From positions 310,001-374,000 of the forward strand of contig JAJEAA010000018.1 of assembly GCA_022824365.1 (NCBI GenBank): a stretch of 64,000 nucleotides of DNA. The letters run 5' to 3'. Position 1 is the stretch's first letter; each line of letters begins with the position of its first letter. Source of the stretch: Anaerolineae bacterium (lineage in GTDB: Bacteria; Chloroflexota; Anaerolineae; Aggregatilineales; Phototrophicaceae). A program made the translations under genes and the position numbers. The notes under the pieces were generated by a model. It searched no databases, was not told the DNA's origin, and was given only the letters and a program-made list of their open reading frames with translations. Positions 34,996 to 46,001 of this stretch are shown here, piece after piece.

Positions 34996-35877
34996 TCAGT
35001 CATCGGCGGCCAGTTGCCCTTGCGCGACCAACTCGACGCGTCCGCCGACGCGTATGATGATATCATCTTTGGTTTGCCGCGCTTCAAGATGGAGCAGCGA
35101 GGGTCGGCCGATCTGATAGCCTTGCTCGCTACGGATAGCGATATTGTCGCTGCCCAGCACATGATACTTGACCAGGTAGCCGGCGATGCAGCCATTAGCG
35201 CTGCCGGTGGCGGGGTCCTCGGGCGCGCCGTAGATATCATCGAGCACACGGACATGGATGTCGTTTTCACCGTGCAGCGTCTCGCTGCAGAAGATGGCCG
35301 GAGCGATGGCCTCATGAGCGCCGAGCAGAGCCCGCAGGCGGTCGAGATTGACTTGCGCCTTTTGCACGGCAGCCAGTGAACGCAGCGGCACGAGGACAAA
35401 AGCCAAGCCGGTTGATACTTCTTGGATCGGGTAGCGGCTGTCGATATCGTCCACGGCAATGTTGAGGATGCGCGCGAGATCAGCGGCGTCGAACCGAGGA
35501 CCGAAGACGGGGGGATTTTGCCGCATCCAGATGATGCCGTCAGCGCCGAAGCTCACGGGGATTTGCCCCAGCGGGAGGTTCAGGATCAATTGCTCGACCG
35601 GCTGTTTGATGTATTCGCGCTGGATGACGAAGGCGGCGCCAAGCACGGGATGGCCGGCGAAATCGACCTCGACTTCGGGCATGAAGATGCGGACATTGTA
35701 GCCGCCGGTCACCGGCGTATCGGAGGTGACGAAGGCGGTCTCGGAGAAGTTGATCTCTTTCGCCAGTTGCTGCATGAGCGATGCGGGCGGATCACCAAGG
35801 TAGACAGCCAGTTGATTGCCCGTGTACTTATGGCCGATGGTGAAGACATCAACGATATAGAATTCCATTCGTGACAT
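34996..35877 (-). CDS. PhzF-family isomerase/epimerase-like protein
   Basis: This 293-residue protein matches the PhzF family, which shares the diaminopimelate epimerase fold. It has the start YIVDVFTIGHKYTGNQLAV, the catalytic Glu in INFSETAFV, DFAGHPVLGAAFVI and the C-terminal GSANGCIAGYLVKY. Most family members have no known substrate; PhzF itself isomerises a phenazine precursor, and no other phenazine gene is present. The start at 35877 lies one base after the stop of the amidase gene, so they are coupled. Confidence 0.92.
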   Translation of the reverse strand: MSRMEFYIVDVFTIGHKYTGNQLAVYLGDPPASLMQQLAKEINFSETAFVTSDTPVTGGYNVRIFMPEVEVDFAGHPVLGAAFVIQREYIKQPVEQLILNLPLGQIPVSFGADGIIWMRQNPPVFGPRFDAADLARILNIAVDDIDSRYPIQEVSTGLAFVLVPLRSLAAVQKAQVNLDRLRALLGAHEAIAPAIFCSETLHGENDIHVRVLDDIYGAPEDPATGSANGCIAGYLVKYHVLGSDNIAIRSEQGYQIGRPSLLHLEARQTKDDIIIRVGGRVELVAQGQLAADD

Positions 35878-35878
35878 G

Positions 35879-36781
35879 TTAGTCGCTCGTTTCGGTAGCC
35901 AGAGTATCGCCCCAGCGAGGCGGCGGGTCCTGCTTAATGCCGCCTAGCAGACGGCGATAGTGCTGTGGCCGGCGCTGGTGCAAGAGCGGGAAGAGATCGA
36001 GATACTGTTCGCGGACGGCCGCGCGCAGCACGGCGTGTATGACTTCGTCCCGATCTCGGCTGGCTTGCGCCAGGATGTTGCCGAGCGGGTCACAGATAAA
36101 ACTGCTGCCGTAGAAAGTGACGGCGTTCTCCCGCCCGATACGATTACAAGCGGCGATGAAAACCCCGTTGGCGACGGCATGGCCGCGCATCACAGTGCGC
36201 CAGGCAGCGGCCGAATCAAAGTCAGGCGCAGTCGGTTCGGAGCCGATCGCGGTCGGATAATAGATGAATTCCGCGCCTTCGAGTGCGTAGATGCGAGCCA
36301 GTTCGGGGAACCATTGGTCATAACAGGTGGGCGCGGCCAGTTTGATCGCGTCGAGGTCATGCACCGGGAACTGATCGCTGCCGGCGAAGAAGTCCGTCTC
36401 GTGGTAGCCGACGCCAGAAGGGATATGGACCTTCCGCGTGACGCCCCGGAGTTCGCCGGAGGGATCATGGATGGTGGCGGTGTCCCAATAGTTGTCGTCG
36501 GCATCCTGCTCGAAGAGGCTGCCGATGATGCTGACCCGATGCGCGCGCGCCAGCTCGCCGAAGAAGCGGTCGGATACGCCGCCGCGCAGAGGTTCCGCCC
36601 AGCGGAAACCAGCCGGATCGCGCAGGCCCGGGAAATAGGGCAAGATGCTGAATTCGGGCAGGCAGATCAGCCTCGCGCCAGCCGCGGCCGCCCCGGCGAC
36701 GAGTTCGCGGTAGAGCGTTTTGGTCGAGGCTTGATCGCCGGTCCAATGCCCTTGCGCCAGGGCGATGTGAAGATCTTTCAT
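35879..36781 (-). CDS. Carbon-nitrogen hydrolase, N-carbamoylputrescine amidase-like
   Basis: From the ATG at 36781 the product is 300 residues of the nitrilase superfamily with the triad Glu43 (LPEF), Lys117 (TRKVHIP) and Cys153 (APTCYDQWFPE). The block CYDQWFPELARIYALEGAEF followed by YYPTAIGSEP, and FYGSSFICDPLGNI further on, closely resemble AguB. AguB converts N-carbamoylputrescine to putrescine, CO2 and ammonia. The ATG overlaps the stop of the amine oxidase gene (ATGA). No agmatine deiminase gene is in the window, so the exact substrate stays open, but the polyamine transporter genes next door support an amine role. Confidence 0.85.
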   Translation of the reverse strand: MKDLHIALAQGHWTGDQASTKTLYRELVAGAAAAGARLICLPEFSILPYFPGLRDPAGFRWAEPLRGGVSDRFFGELARAHRVSIIGSLFEQDADDNYWDTATIHDPSGELRGVTRKVHIPSGVGYHETDFFAGSDQFPVHDLDAIKLAAPTCYDQWFPELARIYALEGAEFIYYPTAIGSEPTAPDFDSAAAWRTVMRGHAVANGVFIAACNRIGRENAVTFYGSSFICDPLGNILAQASRDRDEVIHAVLRAAVREQYLDLFPLLHQRRPQHYRRLLGGIKQDPPPRWGDTLATETSD

Positions 36782-38049
36782 GATTGCTCTCGCCTGTTGA
36801 TTATTTCCTTGGCGGCGCGCTGTCCGGTGAAGTAAGCGCCGTGCGCCATCGCGGTGAGATGATGGGGCGCGCTCGCTTCGCCAGCCCAAAACAACGGCGG
36901 AGTCGACTCAGCCAGTTTGTCGCGCGCGTCATAATGCCCGGGCAAGCAGACGCTATAGCCGCCGAGGGCGAATTCATCTTCGGGCCAGTTTATCCAGCGC
37001 GCCTTGATGTACTGCAAGTCCCGCTTGCCGACCTCGGCTCGTAAGGTCTCCAGCCCTCGCTGTAGCGCCGCCTCTTCGCCAAGATTCAGCAATTCGCGAG
37101 CGTAGTCACCGGTGAAGAAGGCGGTCCAGACGACTGGGCTGTTGTCGCGGCCGAGCGATGGCGACCACCACATGGGCGGGTTGCCGCGGGCGTAAATTGC
37201 GCCGATCGCTGGGTCAAGGATGTGCTGGTCAAAGAGGTAGACCATCTTCATCACCGGTCCCATTTTCAAGCCGGCGAGAGCCTCCTGTTTGGTCGGCGGA
37301 AGCGGAGGATCAAACTGGATGCGGCCCGATTGCAAGACTCCGAGCGGCAGGGTGATGATAGCGGCCTCGGCGCGGAAGATGTCGCCGGCGATAGTTTTGA
37401 CCGTGACGCCGTCAGTCCAGTCGATTTCAGTGACAGGGCAGTTGAGCCGGATATCCAACCCTTCCGCCAGCCGCGTGTAGTAGGCATCGTAGCCATCAAG
37501 GATGCGGAAGTCGCTGTAGTCGTCTTCGCCATCGCTGTCTTTGAAGAGTTGCGCATGGGCTTTGGCATTGAGGAAGCGCATGCTCTCGCCCTCGGCGTTG
37601 GCGAAGGAGCGCTGCACGTAGCGCAACTGCGCCGGGCTGAAACCGATGCGACGGAGATAAGCGCCGAGGTCTTCGTCATCGTGGGGGGCGGGCGCGTCGC
37701 CAAGTTCCCAGGAGCGCGTCACATCCAGCTCGGGTGAACGCGCGCGCGCTTCGCCCATGGTCAGCCAGTCGCCGTCTTCAGTGCGTATCATTGAATCGTC
37801 AATCTTGTTCCAATGCCAGGTCCGCAAGCCCAGCTTATTTACCCAGTGCCAGGTGTTGACCTCAGGCGATTTGCCGTGAATGAACTCGGCGCCGAACTCG
37901 ACCGGGAAACCGGCGAAATCGCGATCGGTCCAGACGCGTCCGCCGATACGGTCCCGCGCTTCGAGCACGGTCGCGGAGACGCCGGCTTCATTCAAATGCC
38001 AGGCGGCTGATAACCCGGCAATGCCCGCGCCAATGACAAGTACGCTCAT
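36778..38049 (-). CDS. FAD-dependent amine oxidase, polyamine-oxidase-like
   Basis: From the ATG at 38049 the product is 423 residues. The FAD-binding Rossmann motif is VIGAGIAGLSAAWHL (residues 5-19), followed by LEARDRIGGRVWT and FGAEFIHG. The C-terminal block LFWAGEASAPHHLTAMAHGA closes the flavin site as in polyamine and LSD1-type oxidases. The enzyme would oxidise a primary or secondary amine to an aldehyde with release of hydrogen peroxide. It has no signal peptide. It overlaps the upstream GNAT stop and the downstream amidase start by four bases each, a tight operon. Confidence 0.9.
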   Translation of the reverse strand: MSVLVIGAGIAGLSAAWHLNEAGVSATVLEARDRIGGRVWTDRDFAGFPVEFGAEFIHGKSPEVNTWHWVNKLGLRTWHWNKIDDSMIRTEDGDWLTMGEARARSPELDVTRSWELGDAPAPHDDEDLGAYLRRIGFSPAQLRYVQRSFANAEGESMRFLNAKAHAQLFKDSDGEDDYSDFRILDGYDAYYTRLAEGLDIRLNCPVTEIDWTDGVTVKTIAGDIFRAEAAIITLPLGVLQSGRIQFDPPLPPTKQEALAGLKMGPVMKMVYLFDQHILDPAIGAIYARGNPPMWWSPSLGRDNSPVVWTAFFTGDYARELLNLGEEAALQRGLETLRAEVGKRDLQYIKARWINWPEDEFALGGYSVCLPGHYDARDKLAESTPPLFWAGEASAPHHLTAMAHGAYFTGQRAAKEIINRREQS

Positions 38050-38933
38050 GTCGCTCTTCCCCGATCGAAATGGGGATTCTCCCACACCAGCAGGACACCG
38101 GCATCACCCGCATCCGATTCGTCGACATAATCGGTAATGACGCGCTCAGGGCGGAAGCCGCGGTTCATCTGCATTGTCACGGTAGGATCTTTGATTTCGC
38201 GGGCTATGACTCTGTTCCCGTATTCGACCGCGTCCATCTTGTCAGCGTGATCGCGATAGCCCATCAACATGCCAACCATATACCAGCCGCGCAAATTGAG
38301 CAGGCTCACGAGCCGCTTGCGCGCATCGTAAAGCACCGTGCCGACGCCTTTCCGCCGATACATCGGATGCACCGCCATCTCGACGCCGTAGAGCCAGTCG
38401 CCATCGGGCTCATGCGAGCTGAGCTGCATATCACCTATAGCTTCGCGCCAGGGCAAGATAGGCGCTGTCGGCGGACGGGATGCGCGCATCGTCACCGCCA
38501 TGCCGACGGTATTCCCAGCGGCGGGACCACTGATGCGAATCGCTGCGAACTGGCCCTCTGGGAATCGTTCAATATGCTTCAGGACGTCCGCGTAATCGAA
38601 GCAATCATCGCATTCTTCATGATTGCCAAGGCCATAGGCGGCGCGCAGCGAGACGACCGCGCTGTCAGCATTCCAGGTTTTGGTGTTCATGATGACAATG
38701 CCGGGCAACTCGAATATGACATCCTCGCGGTCGAAGTGTTTCAGCCACCAGGAGTCGAAGCTCATGTGAAGGGTTCGCGTACCATCGCTGTTGGTTGTCC
38801 AATGGGGTCTATAAGGATCACGCTCTTCGCCGCTTTCTTCAGCGGCTTTTTTGGCAGCTTCTTCAATGAGGCGCTTCTGGATTTCGGGCCATTCGTAATT
38901 CAGCGCTTCCGTGTCTTCATGAGATTTGGACAT
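38046..38933 (-). CDS. GNAT-family N-acetyltransferase (first gene of the amine operon)
   Basis: This 295-residue acetyltransferase has the acetyl-CoA motif HPMYRRKGVGTVLYDARKRL at about residues 183-202. The C-terminal pattern GFRPERVITDYVDES then LLVWENPHF is the same as in the second GNAT of this window (47777-48403). It also resembles the GNAT domain found fused to a nitrilase domain in other bacteria. Here a nitrilase gene lies in the same operon. GGAG seven bases upstream supports the ATG at 38933. A substrate such as a polyamine is possible but not shown. Confidence 0.88.
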   Translation of the reverse strand: MSKSHEDTEALNYEWPEIQKRLIEEAAKKAAEESGEERDPYRPHWTTNSDGTRTLHMSFDSWWLKHFDREDVIFELPGIVIMNTKTWNADSAVVSLRAAYGLGNHEECDDCFDYADVLKHIERFPEGQFAAIRISGPAAGNTVGMAVTMRASRPPTAPILPWREAIGDMQLSSHEPDGDWLYGVEMAVHPMYRRKGVGTVLYDARKRLVSLLNLRGWYMVGMLMGYRDHADKMDAVEYGNRVIAREIKDPTVTMQMNRGFRPERVITDYVDESDAGDAGVLLVWENPHFDRGRAT

Positions 38934-39152
38934 TCTGCGACTCCATCCTTGCGGACGAGTTAGGAATCTATCGGCTGCTTGCCATAATCACAACATTGTT
39001 TGCGGTCGAATGACGGGACCCTTCCCTACGTCGTCTTTGATAAGTATACGTTTCGCCAACGGCCTGCAAGCTACTTTAGCAACGATGCCCAAGTTGCGCT
39101 ACCATACAGTTACGTAGGGTTAAGTCCATAGATCCGAGGCGAGGAGCCGGCG

Positions 39153-39695
39153 ATGAACTCCTATCTGTCTTTCAAACCCAAGCGGAAACGGAAAGCCAAG
39201 AAGAATCCGCGACGGGCGAGTTGGTTTGTTGCCGCGCTGGCAGCCGGAATTATCGGCATGGCGATCATGCTAGGGGCTTTCAATTCAAGCGCGCCAAGAC
39301 AGATATTCAGCACACTGCGAGAGGCGCTCGAATCGGTCGATGGCGTGAACATTACATCGGTCAGCGGCGACGAAAACAGCCTCGAAGTTGTCATCAACTT
39401 CCGCGCCGAGCACATTGATGGCGGGCGGCGGGACATCTATCGGCTGACCTGCGCGCTCCTCCAGGCGCCAAATGCGGATTATCGATTGAAGCTAATCGGC
39501 ACAGCCACGCTCTACCACGCCGGCATACCTAACAACATTCCTATCATCGTGGCCTACATTCGCAGAAGCGAGCAATTGGCGCAACATTGTTCTGGCGGCT
39601 CCCTCGACTTCGATTTGGAATCGTTGGCCTATTTCTACTCTGAATATCGAAAGCTGCGTCCTATCCTGCTGACGCCCATGCCATATGGACGCTGA
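39153..39695 (+). CDS. Small membrane-anchored protein of unknown function
   Basis: This 180-residue protein has a Lys/Arg-rich N terminus (residues 8-22) and one membrane helix (about 24-44) followed by a soluble alpha/beta domain. GAGGAG six bases upstream supports the start. No family was recognised. It ends 25 bases before the GTG of potB on the same strand, so it may be the first gene of the transporter transcript. It could equally be a stand-alone gene in the gap between the two amine-related operons. Confidence 0.7.
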   Translation: MNSYLSFKPKRKRKAKKNPRRASWFVAALAAGIIGMAIMLGAFNSSAPRQIFSTLREALESVDGVNITSVSGDENSLEVVINFRAEHIDGGRRDIYRLTCALLQAPNADYRLKLIGTATLYHAGIPNNIPIIVAYIRRSEQLAQHCSGGSLDFDLESLAYFYSEYRKLRPILLTPMPYGR

Positions 39696-39720
39696 CGCCG
39701 GAAAACGTTAAACTTGATAT

Positions 39721-40578
39721 GTGACGAACTGGCTCAAGCGCAATCAAAAGAACGGCAGTTTCCTCGCCGCGCCAACGGTAGTCTGGCTACTGATATTTTT
39801 CGTCCTGCCGCTGGTGATCGTGCTGGTCGTCAGCCTCATGTCTCGCGGACGGGGCGGCGTGGCGGAATTGCCTTTCACGCTCGCCCATTATGCACGCAGT
39901 TTCGACGTTTTCTCAATCATCTTGTGGCGCTCGATTGGGCTGGCGGCGCTGACGACGGTCGTCTGTTTAATCGTTGGTTATCCGCTCGCTTTCTTCATCA
40001 GCACACGGCGGCGGCGACGGGCGCAGCAGATCACACTTTTTCTTGTCATCCTCCCCTTCTGGACCAACTTCCTCATCCGCACCTACGCCTGGCGCATCTT
40101 GCTGGGAGACGAAGGCACGATCAACGGCTTTCTGATGAGCCTCGGCGTGATCAGCGAGCCGTTGTCACTGCTGAATACGCAGTTTGCGGTGCTGGTCGGT
40201 TTGGTCTACGGCTTCCTGCCGTTTATGGTGCTGCCGATATTCGCCTCGGTGGAGCGCTTCAATTTCCGCTATGTCGACGCGGCGCATGATCTGGGCGCGA
40301 ACGATGTGCGGACCTTTCTGCGCGTCGTCTTGCCCTTGACAATGCCGGGCGTGCTGGCGGGCTGCGCGCTGGTGTTTATCCCGTCTGTGGGCGCATTTGT
40401 GACGCCGGACTTGCTCGGCGGCGCCAAGGGATTGATGATCGGCAACTTGATCAACAATCAATTCGGCGGCTCGGGCAATATGCCGCTTGGCTCGGCGCTC
40501 TCCATCGTGATGATGGCGGTGGTGATGCTGTCGCTGCTGGTTTATGTCTTCGCCAATCGGCGCGATACCGGAGCCTGA
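39721..40578 (+). CDS. potB: Spermidine/putrescine-type ABC transporter permease PotB
   Basis: This 285-residue permease has six membrane helices and the cytoplasmic EAA loop (AAHDLGANDVRTFLRVVLPLT), which contacts the ATPase. Characteristic PotB/PotH blocks include FWTNFLIRTYAWRILLGDEG and PSVGAFVTPDLLGG. The start is GTG at 39721 with no strong ribosome binding site, so translation may depend on the preceding gene. It forms the transport channel with PotC. Family members import spermidine, putrescine or related polyamines, and the substrate is inferred from the binding protein and context. Confidence 0.92.
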   Translation: MTNWLKRNQKNGSFLAAPTVVWLLIFFVLPLVIVLVVSLMSRGRGGVAELPFTLAHYARSFDVFSIILWRSIGLAALTTVVCLIVGYPLAFFISTRRRRRAQQITLFLVILPFWTNFLIRTYAWRILLGDEGTINGFLMSLGVISEPLSLLNTQFAVLVGLVYGFLPFMVLPIFASVERFNFRYVDAAHDLGANDVRTFLRVVLPLTMPGVLAGCALVFIPSVGAFVTPDLLGGAKGLMIGNLINNQFGGSGNMPLGSALSIVMMAVVMLSLLVYVFANRRDTGA

Positions 40579-40579
40579 G

Positions 40580-41473
40580 ATGAGGCAATCGCTGATCAAC
40601 GAAGGCGCAATGGAGCGCAATCGAGTCATCCGCCGGTTGGGCAGCGCCGGGCTATGGCTGAATCCGATCTTCGCTTACTTCTTTCTTTGGGCGCCAATAC
40701 TGATTTTGGTGCTGTTCTCATTTAACGAAAGCCGCTCGGTCGCGTCATTCACCGGCTTCACGCTGAAGTGGTACAACAATATCCTCAACAATGTGATGGG
40801 GGCGGAGAGAGCCTTTTCCACCGAGATCATGCTGAACGCTTTTCGCAACAGTTTGTTCGTCGGGACAGTCGCGACCGCTATCTCGACTGTGCTGGGCACG
40901 ATGATCGCGCTGGCAATGGCGCGAGGCCGGTTTCGCGGTAAGCGCTTGCTGGACGGTTTGCTATTTCTGCCGGTGGTCATCCCGGAGATCACCCAAGCCA
41001 TATCGCTGGCGATCTTCTTCAAGGTCGTCTTCGACTGGGTGGCGCTGATCAGCGGCGAGCGGATGTTCCCCGGCTTTCATACGATCATCGCGGCGCACGT
41101 GACGTTTAACATATCTTATGTGGCGATTGTGGTGCGGGCGCGGCTGGCGGATATGAACCCGCAATTGGAAGAAGCGGCGAACGACCTCGGCGCCAATCCC
41201 TGGCAGACCTTCTGGCGCGTGACCTTCCCGTTGATATTGCCCGGCGTCATTTCCGGCGCTTTGCTGGCATTCACTTTGTCGCTGGATGATTTTGTCATCA
41301 CCTTCTTCACATCTGGCGTCGGTACCTCGACCTTGCCGGTTTTTGTCTATGGCTTGCTGAAGTTGACGGTCACGCCGGAGGTGAACGCCATCTCGACAAT
41401 CATGATGGTCTTGAGTACGATTTTGATCGGCATTTCTTTAGCAATGCAGGGGCGAAACGCGTCCCGCGCTTAG
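40580..41473 (+). CDS. potC: Spermidine/putrescine-type ABC transporter permease PotC
   Basis: From the ATG at 40580, with GGAG six bases upstream and one base after the potB stop, the product is 297 residues. An earlier in-frame ATG at 40544 lies inside potB. Six membrane helices and the EAA loop EEAANDLGANPWQTFWRVTF are present, together with the family block FSFNESRSVASFTGFTLKWY. It pairs with PotB to form the membrane channel. Confidence 0.93.
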   Translation: MRQSLINEGAMERNRVIRRLGSAGLWLNPIFAYFFLWAPILILVLFSFNESRSVASFTGFTLKWYNNILNNVMGAERAFSTEIMLNAFRNSLFVGTVATAISTVLGTMIALAMARGRFRGKRLLDGLLFLPVVIPEITQAISLAIFFKVVFDWVALISGERMFPGFHTIIAAHVTFNISYVAIVVRARLADMNPQLEEAANDLGANPWQTFWRVTFPLILPGVISGALLAFTLSLDDFVITFFTSGVGTSTLPVFVYGLLKLTVTPEVNAISTIMMVLSTILIGISLAMQGRNASRA

Positions 41474-41502
41474 TTCGTTTTGTATAATCGGAGGAGAACA
41501 TC

Positions 41503-42588
41503 ATGAAGAAAATTTTGCTTTTGCTTTGCGTAGTTTTGCTGATGGCGCCGGTCGCCCTGGCGCAAGATATGGAGCACGAGCCCTGGACTTGCCCGGAAGG
41601 TTATGAAGGGCAGACCTTGAGCATTTTCAACTGGTCGACATATATCGCCGAAGATACCGTGCCAAACTTCGAGGAAGCCTGCGGCGTGACTGTCAACTAC
41701 GACATCTATGAGAGCAACGAAGCCATGCTGGCGCGCATCCGCCAGGGCAACCCGGGTTACGACATTGTCGTGCCGAGCGGAGGCACGGTGCAGCGCATGG
41801 CGGAAGAGATGCTGCTCATCCCGCTTGATCTGGAGATGATCCCGAATGTCGCCAATATCATCCCTGACTTGCTTGGCCCCGCTTACGATCCCGAGAACGA
41901 ATATTCCCTGCCCTATCAGTGGGGCACGGTGGGCGTCGGCTATAGCACCGAGGTCTTCCCCGATGGCATCACATCATGGAATCAAGTGTGGGAGCACGAT
42001 GGTCCGGTCGCCTGGCTTGATGACCGGCAGACGATGTTGGGCATCGCGCATTTGTTCCTGGGCAATGACCCCAATACGACCGACGCCGACGAGATCAACG
42101 CCGCCCGCGATTACCTGCTCGAGAATGGCGGCAACGTGGTAACGGTTGCGGCCGACGATGGGCAAGTGCTGCTGGAGCGCGGCGATGTCGATATCGCCAT
42201 CGAATACAACGGCGATATTTTGCAGATCTCCTGGGATTGCGAATGCGATGACTACACCTATGCCATACCGGAAGAAGGAAGCAACGTCTGGATCGACAAC
42301 CTCTCTATCCCGGTTGACGCGCCCAACCCGGAACTGGCCATGGTCTTTATCGATTACATTCTCGATGCCAAGGTCGGCGCCGACCTGACCAATTACATCT
42401 GGTACGCCTCGCCGAATCAAGCCTCCATCGAATCAGGTTTCATCGATGAGGAGATCCTGAATGATCCGGCGATTTTCCCGCCAGCTGAGCAAGTGGCGAA
42501 ACTCTTCGCGATCATTGATGTCGGCGCCGAGGCGGAAGAGTTGATCAACAACGCCTGGGATGAATTGCTGATCTTCCTGGGACAATAA
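41503..42588 (+). CDS. potD: Spermidine/putrescine-binding protein PotD
   Basis: This 361-residue protein has a cleavable signal peptide (hydrophobic core LLLLCVVLLMAPVALA, likely cut after Ala-Gln about residue 21) and no lipobox Cys, so it is secreted or otherwise retained. Typical PotD/PotF blocks include LSIFNWSTYIAEDTV, DIVVPSGGTVQRMAEE and YQWGTVGVGYSTEVFPDG. The acidic and Trp residues around the cleft fit cationic polyamines. A strong GGAGGAG precedes the ATG. A hairpin follows the stop and may raise its expression above that of potA. Confidence 0.94.
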   Translation: MKKILLLLCVVLLMAPVALAQDMEHEPWTCPEGYEGQTLSIFNWSTYIAEDTVPNFEEACGVTVNYDIYESNEAMLARIRQGNPGYDIVVPSGGTVQRMAEEMLLIPLDLEMIPNVANIIPDLLGPAYDPENEYSLPYQWGTVGVGYSTEVFPDGITSWNQVWEHDGPVAWLDDRQTMLGIAHLFLGNDPNTTDADEINAARDYLLENGGNVVTVAADDGQVLLERGDVDIAIEYNGDILQISWDCECDDYTYAIPEEGSNVWIDNLSIPVDAPNPELAMVFIDYILDAKVGADLTNYIWYASPNQASIESGFIDEEILNDPAIFPPAEQVAKLFAIIDVGAEAEELINNAWDELLIFLGQ

Positions 42589-42644
42589 ACAGCCGAATTT
42601 CACCGAACGGCAACCACAGAATCCCTCACGTCGCGTTGCATTTG

Positions 42645-42689
42645 ACTCCCCTCTCCCCTTGTGGGAGAGGGGCCGGGGGTGAGGGGTAG
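42645..42689 (+). repeat. Dispersed CTCCCCTCTCCC-type hairpin element between potD and potA
   Basis: CCCCTCTCCC (42648-42657) pairs perfectly with GGGAGAGGGG (42663-42672) around a five-base loop, followed by a G-rich tail up to 42686. This is a common dispersed repeat of many genomes. It can act as a partial terminator or an mRNA-stabilising stem after potD. Its right side gives a false in-frame extension of potA beginning GEGPGVRG. Confidence 0.75.
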
Positions 42690-42693
42690 CCTC

Positions 42694-43830
42694 ATGACAT
42701 CATACGATGTTGAACTGAAGGATATCGTCAAGGATTTTGAATCCGGCGGCGGTCGCGTTCGCGCGGTGGATCACGTCAGCGTTGATATCGCCGATGGCGA
42801 GTTTTTCGCGCTGCTGGGTCCAAGCGGCTGCGGCAAGACGACGACGCTTCGGCTGATCGCCGGCTTCGAGCAGCCCACCGCCGGTCATATTCTGATTCGC
42901 GGCCGGGCGATGGAAGGCATCCCGGCTTATCATCGTCCCGTGAACACGGTGTTCCAGGATTATGCTCTCTTCCCACATTTGACGGTCGAGCAGAATATCA
43001 TGTTCGGCTTGCAGATGGAGGGCGTCCACAAGCGCGAGGCGGTTAAGCTGGCAGGTGAAGCGCTGGAGATGGTGCGGCTGCCGGGCGTGGGCGAGCGCAA
43101 GCCGCATCAGCTATCAGGCGGGCAGCAGCAGCGGGTGGCGCTGGCGCGCTCCTTGGTCAAGCAGCCGGCCGTGCTCCTGCTGGATGAGCCGCTTGGCGCC
43201 CTCGATCTCAAACTGCGCAAGAATATGCAATACGAACTGAAAGCGCTGCAGCGCGATGTCGGCATCACCTTCATCTACGTGACGCATGACCAAGAGGAAG
43301 CGATCACAATGGCCGATCGCATCGCTGTTATGAATGAAGGCAAAATGCTGCAAGTTGGGACGCCGAAGCAGATCTACGAACATCCCGAGACCCATTTTGT
43401 GGCGGACTTCATCGGCGAGACGAACTTCATCGCTGGCGCGCTGACTGAGCGCGGTGGCGACGGCTATGGCAGCGTCCGGCTCCAGGACGGGTCTGTCATA
43501 CGCGCGCAGCTAGCTGATACGCTGGGCAGCGCGGCCAGCGCGGTCACCGTGGCGATACGCCCCGAACGCATCGGTATCTCCACGCCCCTCAATCCTCCTA
43601 CAGCATTTGGCGGAGGCGTCGATTCCAGCGAAATCGCGATGCTTGACGCGCTCTTGGTAGATAGTCAATACATCGGCACCGACACGCGTTTCACGCTGCG
43701 AATCGGCGATGGGATTGAGTTAGTGGCCCGCTTGCAGAATATCGACGATTTGGCTGTGAACACCTTGCGTATCGGGCAGAAGGTCAAAGTATTCTGGCAA
43801 GAGTCGAGCGCGACCGTGCTGGACCGCTAG
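42694..43830 (+). CDS. potA: Spermidine/putrescine-type ABC transporter ATPase PotA
   Basis: From the ATG at 42694 the product is 378 residues. Motifs are Walker [11 protein letters not shown]-loop [11 protein letters not shown], signature [13 protein letters not shown] and Walker [17 protein letters not shown] regulatory domain follows at about residues 285-375. A longer frame opens at 42661 but its extra residues come from the dispersed repeat. It energises import through PotBC and completes a BCDA gene order in which the ATPase comes last. Confidence 0.94.
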
Positions 43831-43937
43831 AGTCGATTGACGCCGTCCGCCGAGCGACGCGGCATAGAAGCAATAGCAACGACATTGGCTTGATGGTAAT
43901 ATCATCCTGAGTGTTTCTGCCTATCTGTGAGATAACC

Positions 43938-45155
43938 ATGATCTCGCCCGACATCGCAATGACTTGTCAAAGTGAAAATTGCGCCTGCCGGAAACCGGTG
44001 GACGCGAAGACGAGCTTCCAGGTCACTGACGAGTTTGAGCGCTTCAATCAAAAGTACGACATGTTCAATCGCGCGGTCTGGGATGAAGACGTGCGGTCGG
44101 AACGGTCGCAACGGTTCTTTGAATCTTACTTCACCGATTTGGCGCAATTCCGCAAGGTCGAGGGCTTCGAGCATCGCGATTACGCGCTGCGCAACGCGGC
44201 CTGGTATATCGCCGATTTCACCGCCGACTTGCTGGAGACAAGCCAGGACCGCAAGGAAGGCTTCCTCGATACTTACACCATGTTCCGCGAAGGCGCGACC
44301 CGCAAGACCGTGGCTAGCGCGGAAGTCAACACGGCGGAGCTGAAGCGCGCCGGCAAATTCCTGGGCGCGGACGCGCTCGGCATCTGCGAATACGACGAGC
44401 GCTGGGTCTATACGCATAACTACAGCCGGCAGAATCTCATGGCGAAGGAGATGGATCTGCCGAGTGACTTGACCCATGCGGTCGTGATCGTCAACGAGAT
44501 GGATCACGCAACCATCGAAACGGTGCCTTCAGCCTTGAGCGGCGCCGCCACCGGGCAAGGTTATAGCCGCGATATCATCGCCGTGCTATCGATAACGCAG
44601 TACATACGCAATCTTGGTTATCGCGCCTTTGCCAGCCTGAACGATACCGCGCTGTCCATCCCGCTGGCGATTCAAGCGGGCTTGGGCCAGTACGGGCGGC
44701 ACGGCCTCCTGATCACGCCGGAGTTTGGTCCCCGCGTCCGCATCGCCAAGATATTCACCGACTTGCCCCTGGTCGCGGACGAACCGATAGATTTCGGCGT
44801 GACCGAAACCTGCGACATTTGCCGCCGCTGCAGCGCCGCTTGCCCAGTCAAGGCCATCCCCTTTGACGAACCCAACTTCGATAGACACGACGGGATATCG
44901 CATCTCAAGGGCGTCAAGAAGTGGACCATTAACGCCAAGCAATGTTTTCAGTTCTGGGCGAACCAAGGTACGGATTGTTCCATTTGCATACGTGTTTGCC
45001 CGTACAACCGCGACTTGTCCAAGGCTTTCAATCGAGTCTTGCGCTGGATGTTGGGCAATCGCTGGCGGCGTCTGGCATTGTGGCTGGATCGGAAGCTCAA
45101 GCAGGGCGAGCGAAAGACAGCCGGCTGGTGGTGGAGACGCATGTCAAATGGCTGA
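43938..45155 (+). CDS. Reductive-dehalogenase-like corrinoid/iron-sulfur protein, cytosolic
   Basis: The chosen ATG gives 405 residues; a GTG at 43911 and an ATG at 43959 are alternatives. The C terminus binds two 4Fe-4S clusters, with Cys292/295/298/302 (CX2CX2CX3CP) and Cys336/347/350/354 (CX10CX2CX3CP). This is the RdhA spacing rather than that of QueG, whose second motif is longer. The preceding block matches RdhA: GYSRDI (Tyr209, candidate proton donor), NDTALSIPLAIQAGLGQYGR, HGLLITPEFGPRVRI and FTDLPLVADEPIDFGV. It has no Tat signal and no RdhB gene follows, so it is not a classical respiratory enzyme. It is probably cobamide-dependent; substrate unknown. Confidence 0.8.
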   Translation: MISPDIAMTCQSENCACRKPVDAKTSFQVTDEFERFNQKYDMFNRAVWDEDVRSERSQRFFESYFTDLAQFRKVEGFEHRDYALRNAAWYIADFTADLLETSQDRKEGFLDTYTMFREGATRKTVASAEVNTAELKRAGKFLGADALGICEYDERWVYTHNYSRQNLMAKEMDLPSDLTHAVVIVNEMDHATIETVPSALSGAATGQGYSRDIIAVLSITQYIRNLGYRAFASLNDTALSIPLAIQAGLGQYGRHGLLITPEFGPRVRIAKIFTDLPLVADEPIDFGVTETCDICRRCSAACPVKAIPFDEPNFDRHDGISHLKGVKKWTINAKQCFQFWANQGTDCSICIRVCPYNRDLSKAFNRVLRWMLGNRWRRLALWLDRKLKQGERKTAGWWWRRMSNG

Positions 45156-45528
45156 GCGCGCGCTCACAGTCTTCAGCGCGCTTGACTTCGACTTTGCGGG
45201 CGACGCCGACCCCTCAGAAGAAATGCGCCAGCGACTTTACGAGGCGCTGACGCTGTTGGCGGCCGCCTGTGTGGCGCGTGAGCTAAGTCAATCAGCGGTT
45301 GATATCCTGGCTTTCCTCCTGCTTCAGTCGGACTTGAGTATCGCGGTTAAGGATATCGCCGAAGACATGTTCGCCGATCTGGAGGGACGAATCTGCCCAC
45401 GCGTCATCTATGACGCCAAAGAATTCGCAACTGACATGGACTTAAAAACCATGGTCGAGTACTTGCTTGAGATACTTGAAGGCGAGCCCAACCTGACGCT
45501 TGCGCAACGCCCGCTCGGCGTCGCTTGA
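45148..45528 (+). CDS. Small acidic protein overlapping the reductive-dehalogenase-like gene, unknown
   Basis: The ATG at 45148 gives 126 residues and overlaps the upstream stop by eight bases, which suggests translational coupling. The protein is mostly helical and acidic (MAERALTVFSALDFDF, then LYEALTLLAAACVARELSQ) with no membrane helix and no metal motif, so it is not an RdhB anchor. No family was recognised. It could be a partner or chaperone of the upstream protein, or a chance neighbour. Confidence 0.6.
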   Translation: MAERALTVFSALDFDFAGDADPSEEMRQRLYEALTLLAAACVARELSQSAVDILAFLLLQSDLSIAVKDIAEDMFADLEGRICPRVIYDAKEFATDMDLKTMVEYLLEILEGEPNLTLAQRPLGVA

Positions 45529-45590: not shown

Positions 45591-46001
45591 ATGGATCGAT
45601 TATCGGCGATATTTCAATTTGCTCCGCTGCGCCTCACGCTGGCTATCAGTTGGTCGCTGCTGTTGTCGCTGCTGCTGTTGCAAGCGGAAGCGGATCCGGT
45701 GATAGACCTGGGCATCCCGCGGGGAGAGAACACGCTTGCTCGCGAATTGGTCTTTAGCGCCGCGCATCTGCTGGCATTCGGCGGGACCTGTATCTGCTGG
45801 AATTGGGCGCTGCCGCAGACTTTGGGCGCGCGCAAGACCCTGTTAGTCGCTTGCGCTATAACTATCGTCCTCGGTGTCTCGACTGAGCTCTTGCAGACCT
45901 TTACCCTCGATCGGCACGCCTCCTGGTTTGACCTGGCGGCAAATATTGCCGGCGCGGTGATTGCCGCCAGACTGCTCTGGACAAGGCGCATCTGGCGATA
46001 A
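45591..46001 (+). CDS. VanZ-family membrane protein
   Basis: This 136-residue protein has three to four hydrophobic segments and the VanZ-like block STELLQTFTLDRHASWFDLA followed by a Gly/Ala-rich helix. In enterococci VanZ contributes to low-level teicoplanin resistance, but most homologues have no known role. It sits alone between the RdhA-like pair and the PD40/SH3b gene on the same strand, with gaps of about 60 bases. Confidence 0.85.
   Translation: MDRLSAIFQFAPLRLTLAISWSLLLSLLLLQAEADPVIDLGIPRGENTLARELVFSAAHLLAFGGTCICWNWALPQTLGARKTLLVACAITIVLGVSTELLQTFTLDRHASWFDLAANIAGAVIAARLLWTRRIWR

Follow-up and report, generated by a model that had tools for sequence, protein, structure and literature searches.

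The window analysed here, a stretch of 64,000 nucleotides, carries on its + strand an intact open reading frame (43938..45155; start ATG 43938, stop TGA 45155, with an in-frame GTG ahead of the start at 43911) for a 405-residue RdhA-like protein, P0001. The protein is described as a cytosolic reductive dehalogenase from the family model TIGR02486, a PDB match to PceA, an AlphaFold model and Ka/Ks. Directly upstream lie the genes of a Pot-type (polyamine-like) ABC transporter (39721..43830, + strand), which comprise two permeases, a binding protein and an ATPase; potA scores above the cut-off of TIGR01187, and the block is kept in the genus. A conserved block of polyamine type (34996-43830) stands beside the dehalogenase and holds PhzF-like, N-carbamoylputrescine amidase-like, flavin amine oxidase and GNAT genes together with the transporter. 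On the downstream side, the ATG of a 126-codon ORF (45148..45528, + strand) overlaps the dehalogenase stop (ATGGCTGA). This ORF is conserved in part of the genus, evolves faster than the dehalogenase (Ka/Ks 0.26-0.35) and has no match in Pfam, NCBIfam or plasmids. It is followed by a gene for a VanZ-like membrane protein (45591..46001, + strand; PF04892, 30.9 bits vs 30.1) with synteny in the genus.

The two RdhA-type cysteine clusters read in the initial annotation are both present as [4Fe-4S] motifs in the sequence and the family alignment. The first, CX2CX2CX3C, is CDICRRCSAACP (residues 292-303; 44811..44846, + strand), and the second, CX10CX2CX3C, is C336-x10-CSICIRVCP (residues 336-355, the latter part at 347-355; 44943..45002, + strand). 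That these clusters are more than chance is indicated by the NCBIfam model TIGR02486 RDH (184.2 bits, above the cut-off of 160.35), by Pfam Dehalogenase PF13486 (31.8 against 24.3) and by a PDB sequence search, where the protein matches PceA at E 1.7e-51. The order of PDB matches runs from the Desulfitobacterium and Sulfurospirillum tetrachloroethene dehalogenases through NpRdhA to QueG. The QueG model TIGR00276 reaches only 68 bits against a cut-off of 200. The earlier observation of an RdhA-like protein is confirmed.

The active site was aligned with PceA (4uqu), in which we take residues 246, 272 and 305 to be the catalytic residues known from the structure. Tyr209 (codon 44562..44564, + strand) is equivalent to the proton donor Tyr246, Asn235 (44640..44642, + strand) to Asn272, and Arg268 (44739..44741, + strand) to Arg305, in the column where BhbA/NpRdhA-type enzymes have Lys. 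The window dehalogenase therefore carries the active-site Tyr, Asn and Arg/Lys of PceA and NpRdhA, and Y209, N235, R268 and the eight cluster cysteines are all invariant among 43 aligned family members. Tyr209 had been named earlier in a proposed check for a cobamide pocket. Its equivalence to PceA Tyr246 stands, but the residue alone does not discriminate because QueG also has Tyr in this column. What tells the window dehalogenase apart from QueG in the alignment is N235-D236 and R268, since the aligned QueGs have Thr or Ser at the Asn235 position and Phe or Tyr at the Arg268 position.

The AlphaFold2 model, built from the family alignment, has a pLDDT of 88.6 and a pTM of 0.89, and was compared with known structures by Foldseek and VIA-align. 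It aligns with the Desulfitobacterium RDase 8q4h over 378 residues (Z 40.3), with PceA in complex with 2,4,6-trichlorophenol at Z 37.7 and with the PceA halophenol complexes at about 37, i.e., PceA is matched over nearly its full length at Z 37-40. The match to NpRdhA (Z 31-33) covers the core part only, with the model aligning only to NpRdhA residues 269-616. QueG is matched at Z 14.9 (range 14-15) over about 200 residues, again the core only, and the N-terminal part (residues 19-126) that is common to RDases is absent from the QueG match. A structure model had been proposed as a check, and in it the RDases rank first over QueG (Z 40.3 vs 14.9). The modelled fold matches corrinoid enzymes, and corrinoid binding is predicted.

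The initial annotation left room for queuosine-like chemistry, and the RdhA/QueG phylogeny that it called for separates the window dehalogenase from QueG. A quick tree of 63 rows gathers the family in a single group (97*), distinct from both QueG (99*) and BhbA/NpRdhA (99*). A more careful tree of 51 rows again places QueG apart (100/99). Here, the long branches of respiratory RdhA come out within the family, a placement with no support (8/0), which makes the exact limits of the clade and its border with respiratory RdhA only provisional. QueG, the epoxyqueuosine reductase, resembles the window dehalogenase in the corrinoid core and the two cluster motifs, and it shares the Tyr of the Tyr209 column, but it differs in its tRNA substrate, in other active-site residues and in an extended C-terminal region that is absent from the window dehalogenase in the alignment. 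The host genome also carries its own, separate QueG gene (341 bits). With the TIGR00276 score far below its cut-off and a separate branch in both trees, a queuosine-pathway role for the window gene is exceedingly improbable, and we rejected QueG identity.

Reductive dehalogenation is usually tied to anaerobic organohalide respiration, and the protein was compared with respiratory enzymes in its export signals and gene neighbours. No RR occurs in the first 60 residues, and the protein has neither a transmembrane helix nor a hydrophobic N-terminus (highest 19-mer value -0.13), while the control, Sulfurospirillum PceA, has a 19-mer maximum of 1.5 plus an RRDF motif. The earlier claims that a Tat leader and a membrane anchor are missing were thus borne out. 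So were those on RdhB and regulators. No RdhB was recognised adjoining the dehalogenase, where the Pot ATPase lies upstream and the 126-codon ORF and VanZ-like gene downstream, and none of the adjacent genes examined is a regulator, a LysR gene being 26 kb away. As Tat leader and RdhB are both lacking, a respiratory RdhA identity was rejected. One could still imagine a respiratory dehalogenase that is tethered to the membrane in an unusual way, for instance through the VanZ-like protein, whose gene lies close downstream on the same strand across the genus. However, this gene is displaced in locus L057 and was not found near the dehalogenase gene in L059 and L061, the neighbours examined included no recognisable rdh regulator or RdhC-type gene, the host genome encodes a haem-copper oxidase, and the dehalogenase itself lacks leader and helix, which makes such an arrangement very unlikely. 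A literature search found no paper linking VanZ with reductive dehalogenases.

Compared with tested enzymes, the respiratory PceA of Sulfurospirillum multivorans (4uqu) and the Desulfitobacterium RDase (8q4h) share the full-length fold, the cluster motifs and the Tyr/Asn/Arg site with the window protein, but are Tat-exported, work with RdhB and have about 25-30% identity to it. The catabolic RdhAs that have been characterised use phenols with an ortho halogen as substrates and contain a duplicated domain in vestigial form (PMC10463259). These enzymes, BhbA, NpRdhA and JtRdhA, resemble the window protein in being cytosolic and of the oxygen-tolerant type, and their ortho-halogenated phenols are also the probable substrate class of the window protein. 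They differ in the vestigial duplicated domain, in the phthalate-dioxygenase-type reductase fused to most of them, in having Lys in place of Arg268 and in an identity of only about 28%. The vestigial duplicated N-terminal core domain is absent from the 405-residue window dehalogenase in the NpRdhA alignment, and the C-terminal reductase domain of the full-length BhbA/NpRdhA subfamily is absent by Pfam and structure. Membership of the BhbA/NpRdhA catabolic subfamilies is ruled out because the vestigial duplicated domain is lacking.

A closer counterpart is Ros_A3X954, a cytosolic RDase from Roseobacter sp. MED193 that debrominates 2,6-dibromophenol and has been placed in no orthologous group (PMC13101508). 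It has CDICTKCADACP at 283-294, CAICMRVCP at 337-345 and PF13486 at 174-269 (PMC13101508). The 389-residue alphaproteobacterial protein P0002 in our set has CDICTKCADACP at 283, CAICMRVCP at 337 and PF13486 at 173-269, and from this fingerprint of motifs, positions and Pfam range it is probably Ros_A3X954 or a close copy. The window dehalogenase and P0002 share 44% identity over 384 residues, which brings the former above the 40% full-length similarity, with the same layout, that marks a clade of the Ros_A3X954 type. Like the window protein, Ros_A3X954 and Pararhodobacter A0A2T7UTL8 are cytosolic, about 390-405 residues long and free of Tat leader and fused reductase, with near-identical cluster spacing, although they are alphaproteobacterial and belong to another sub-branch than the Chloroflexota enzyme. 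The window dehalogenase is thus a member of a poorly studied clade of an already known kind of reductive dehalogenase, and this clade seems to include one laboratory-tested enzyme.

The gene is well established in its genus. It occurs in 31 of 33 congeneric genomes with about 78-94% identity, in a conserved block between the Pot-type transporter and the VanZ-like gene, and its Ka/Ks of about 0.08 within the genus corresponds to strong purifying selection. Conserved synteny and Ka/Ks together led us to reject that the gene is recent or decaying, although in one congener (G018) the pot genes are followed by 2.5 kb without a dehalogenase match, and another (G009) lacks both pot genes and dehalogenase. 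None of the three other genera of the family examined has the gene, and among further genomes of the order only distant RDases were found, in 2 of 24. A further congener (G033, contigs C20 and C25, loci L150-L152) has four more RDase-like genes, of which three group on a long branch of their own in the tree.

Gene content of the host genome was examined one gene family at a time. Haem-copper oxidase subunit I is present, and aerobic respiration of the host is therefore likely. Regarding the capacity for cobalamin, which the initial annotation had asked about, CobS and CobU are present, as is a protein with a B12-binding domain, but CobQ was not found by a single-family search of the 94%-complete genome. 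From these gene contents, the host probably salvages corrinoid. The labels COS, RHO and APA of several related MAGs suggest marine sponges, judging from the names and a published sponge list used to read them (PMC8163846).

Relatives sharing 42-56% identity are spread over about ten phyla, aerobes included: Acidobacteriota, Gemmatimonadota, Binatota, Planctomycetota, Deinococcota, Pseudomonadota, Myxococcota, Actinomycetota, Fidelibacterota and other Chloroflexota. No gene partner conserved across all phyla was found among the relatives' loci. In Luminiphilus syltensis (L153, 1-19001), genes for a Trp/Tyr permease, MarR regulator and [2Fe-2S] ferredoxin lie between two family dehalogenases. 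A P450 and a TonB receptor are also encoded at this locus, and beyond the second dehalogenase copy come genes for a PrnB-like haem enzyme and a kynureninase-like aminotransferase. The region has the look of a gene cluster for the catabolism of (halogenated) aromatic amino acids. A Trp/Tyr permease adjoins the dehalogenase in seven distant loci, a permease family chosen after seeing the loci and not beforehand, and in the Luminiphilus and Emcibacter genomes it is the only copy, about 4-7 kb from the dehalogenase. SNF-type symporters adjoin the dehalogenase in six other loci, and PrnB-like genes stand beside it in five gammaproteobacterial loci. None of these genes was recognised among the window neighbours. 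The neighbourhoods hint at halogenated aromatic amino acids as substrates, a lead that concerns the wider family and is not a result for the window gene.

Two further features of the relatives' genomes can be added. An alphaproteobacterial MAG (G065, L088) has seventeen places that match the dehalogenase, including short RDase-like proteins of 330-380 residues that stand apart from RdhA and QueG in trees. In eight gammaproteobacterial loci (L093, L095, L096, L098 and L104-L107), a protein of about 306 residues without a Pfam match (family c14, e.g., L095 7164-8102) directly overlaps or follows the dehalogenase.

The family models, catalytic residues, predicted structure, tree and likely characterised relative make it quite probable that the window gene encodes a reductive dehalogenase of the corrinoid/2x[4Fe-4S] type that is cytosolic and non-respiratory. 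It appears to be a real, functional-looking cytosolic protein, most likely catabolic or detoxifying, for small halogenated aromatics. The catabolic dehalogenase of the initial annotation thus fits what the models, Tyr209, structure, tree and relative indicate, but not in the form of the BhbA/NpRdhA subfamilies. Small aromatics that carry a halogen ortho to a phenolic OH are the probable substrates, and bromine or iodine is the halogen most likely taken off small aromatic molecules; both halide removal and substrate class are inferred. A soluble donor, likely a ferredoxin or flavodoxin system, would feed electrons to the two [4Fe-4S] clusters; no electron donor gene lies beside the dehalogenase in the window. 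The clusters would reduce cob(II)alamin in the nitroreductase-like core to Co(I), which would attack the halogen of the aryl halide, while Tyr209, flanked by Arg268 and Asn235, would supply a proton. The dehalogenated aromatic and halide would then leave, and the substrate would serve as a carbon source or be detoxified, not respired.

Against this reading stand the identity of only 44% to P0002, the probably characterised relative known by its fingerprint of motifs and positions, as well as the lack of a donor gene beside the dehalogenase, the missing CobQ and the unsupported clade limits in the careful tree. A corrinoid reductase of RDase fold could instead serve ordinary metabolism by acting on a non-halogenated substrate, e.g., an epoxide or activated phenol. 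The gene is fixed in almost every genome of the genus in synteny with polyamine-type genes, QueG demonstrates that the core fold is capable of other reductions, and the window showed no recognisable halogen-related gene. Nevertheless, the PceA-type Tyr/Asn/Arg triad is conserved and an apparent family member removes bromine (PMC13101508), so we regard such a role as unlikely. Returning to reductive dehalogenation, the wider family might be a dedicated aerobic system that dehalogenates aromatic amino acids or products of their degradation (bromo/iodotyrosine, bromotryptophan), with Trp/Tyr permeases, ferredoxin and a PrnB-like haem enzyme as proteobacterial partners, and the Chloroflexota genus might take bromine off bromotyrosine-derived compounds of marine hosts. 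This extension is tentative and we consider it rather doubtful; a partial literature search gave nothing on point for bromotyrosine and reductive dehalogenases.

Collectively, our results describe a soluble dehalogenase that is near-universal in a genus of oxidase-bearing Anaerolineae and has relatives in about ten phyla. Its compact architecture, with no Tat leader, duplicated domain or fused reductase, makes it an attractive expression target, and the gene neighbourhoods of its relatives give a testable guess at the substrate. Given its near-universal presence in the genus and the spread of relatives, B12 enzymes may take halogens off compounds in oxic habitats much more often than one would expect from the few enzymes tested.
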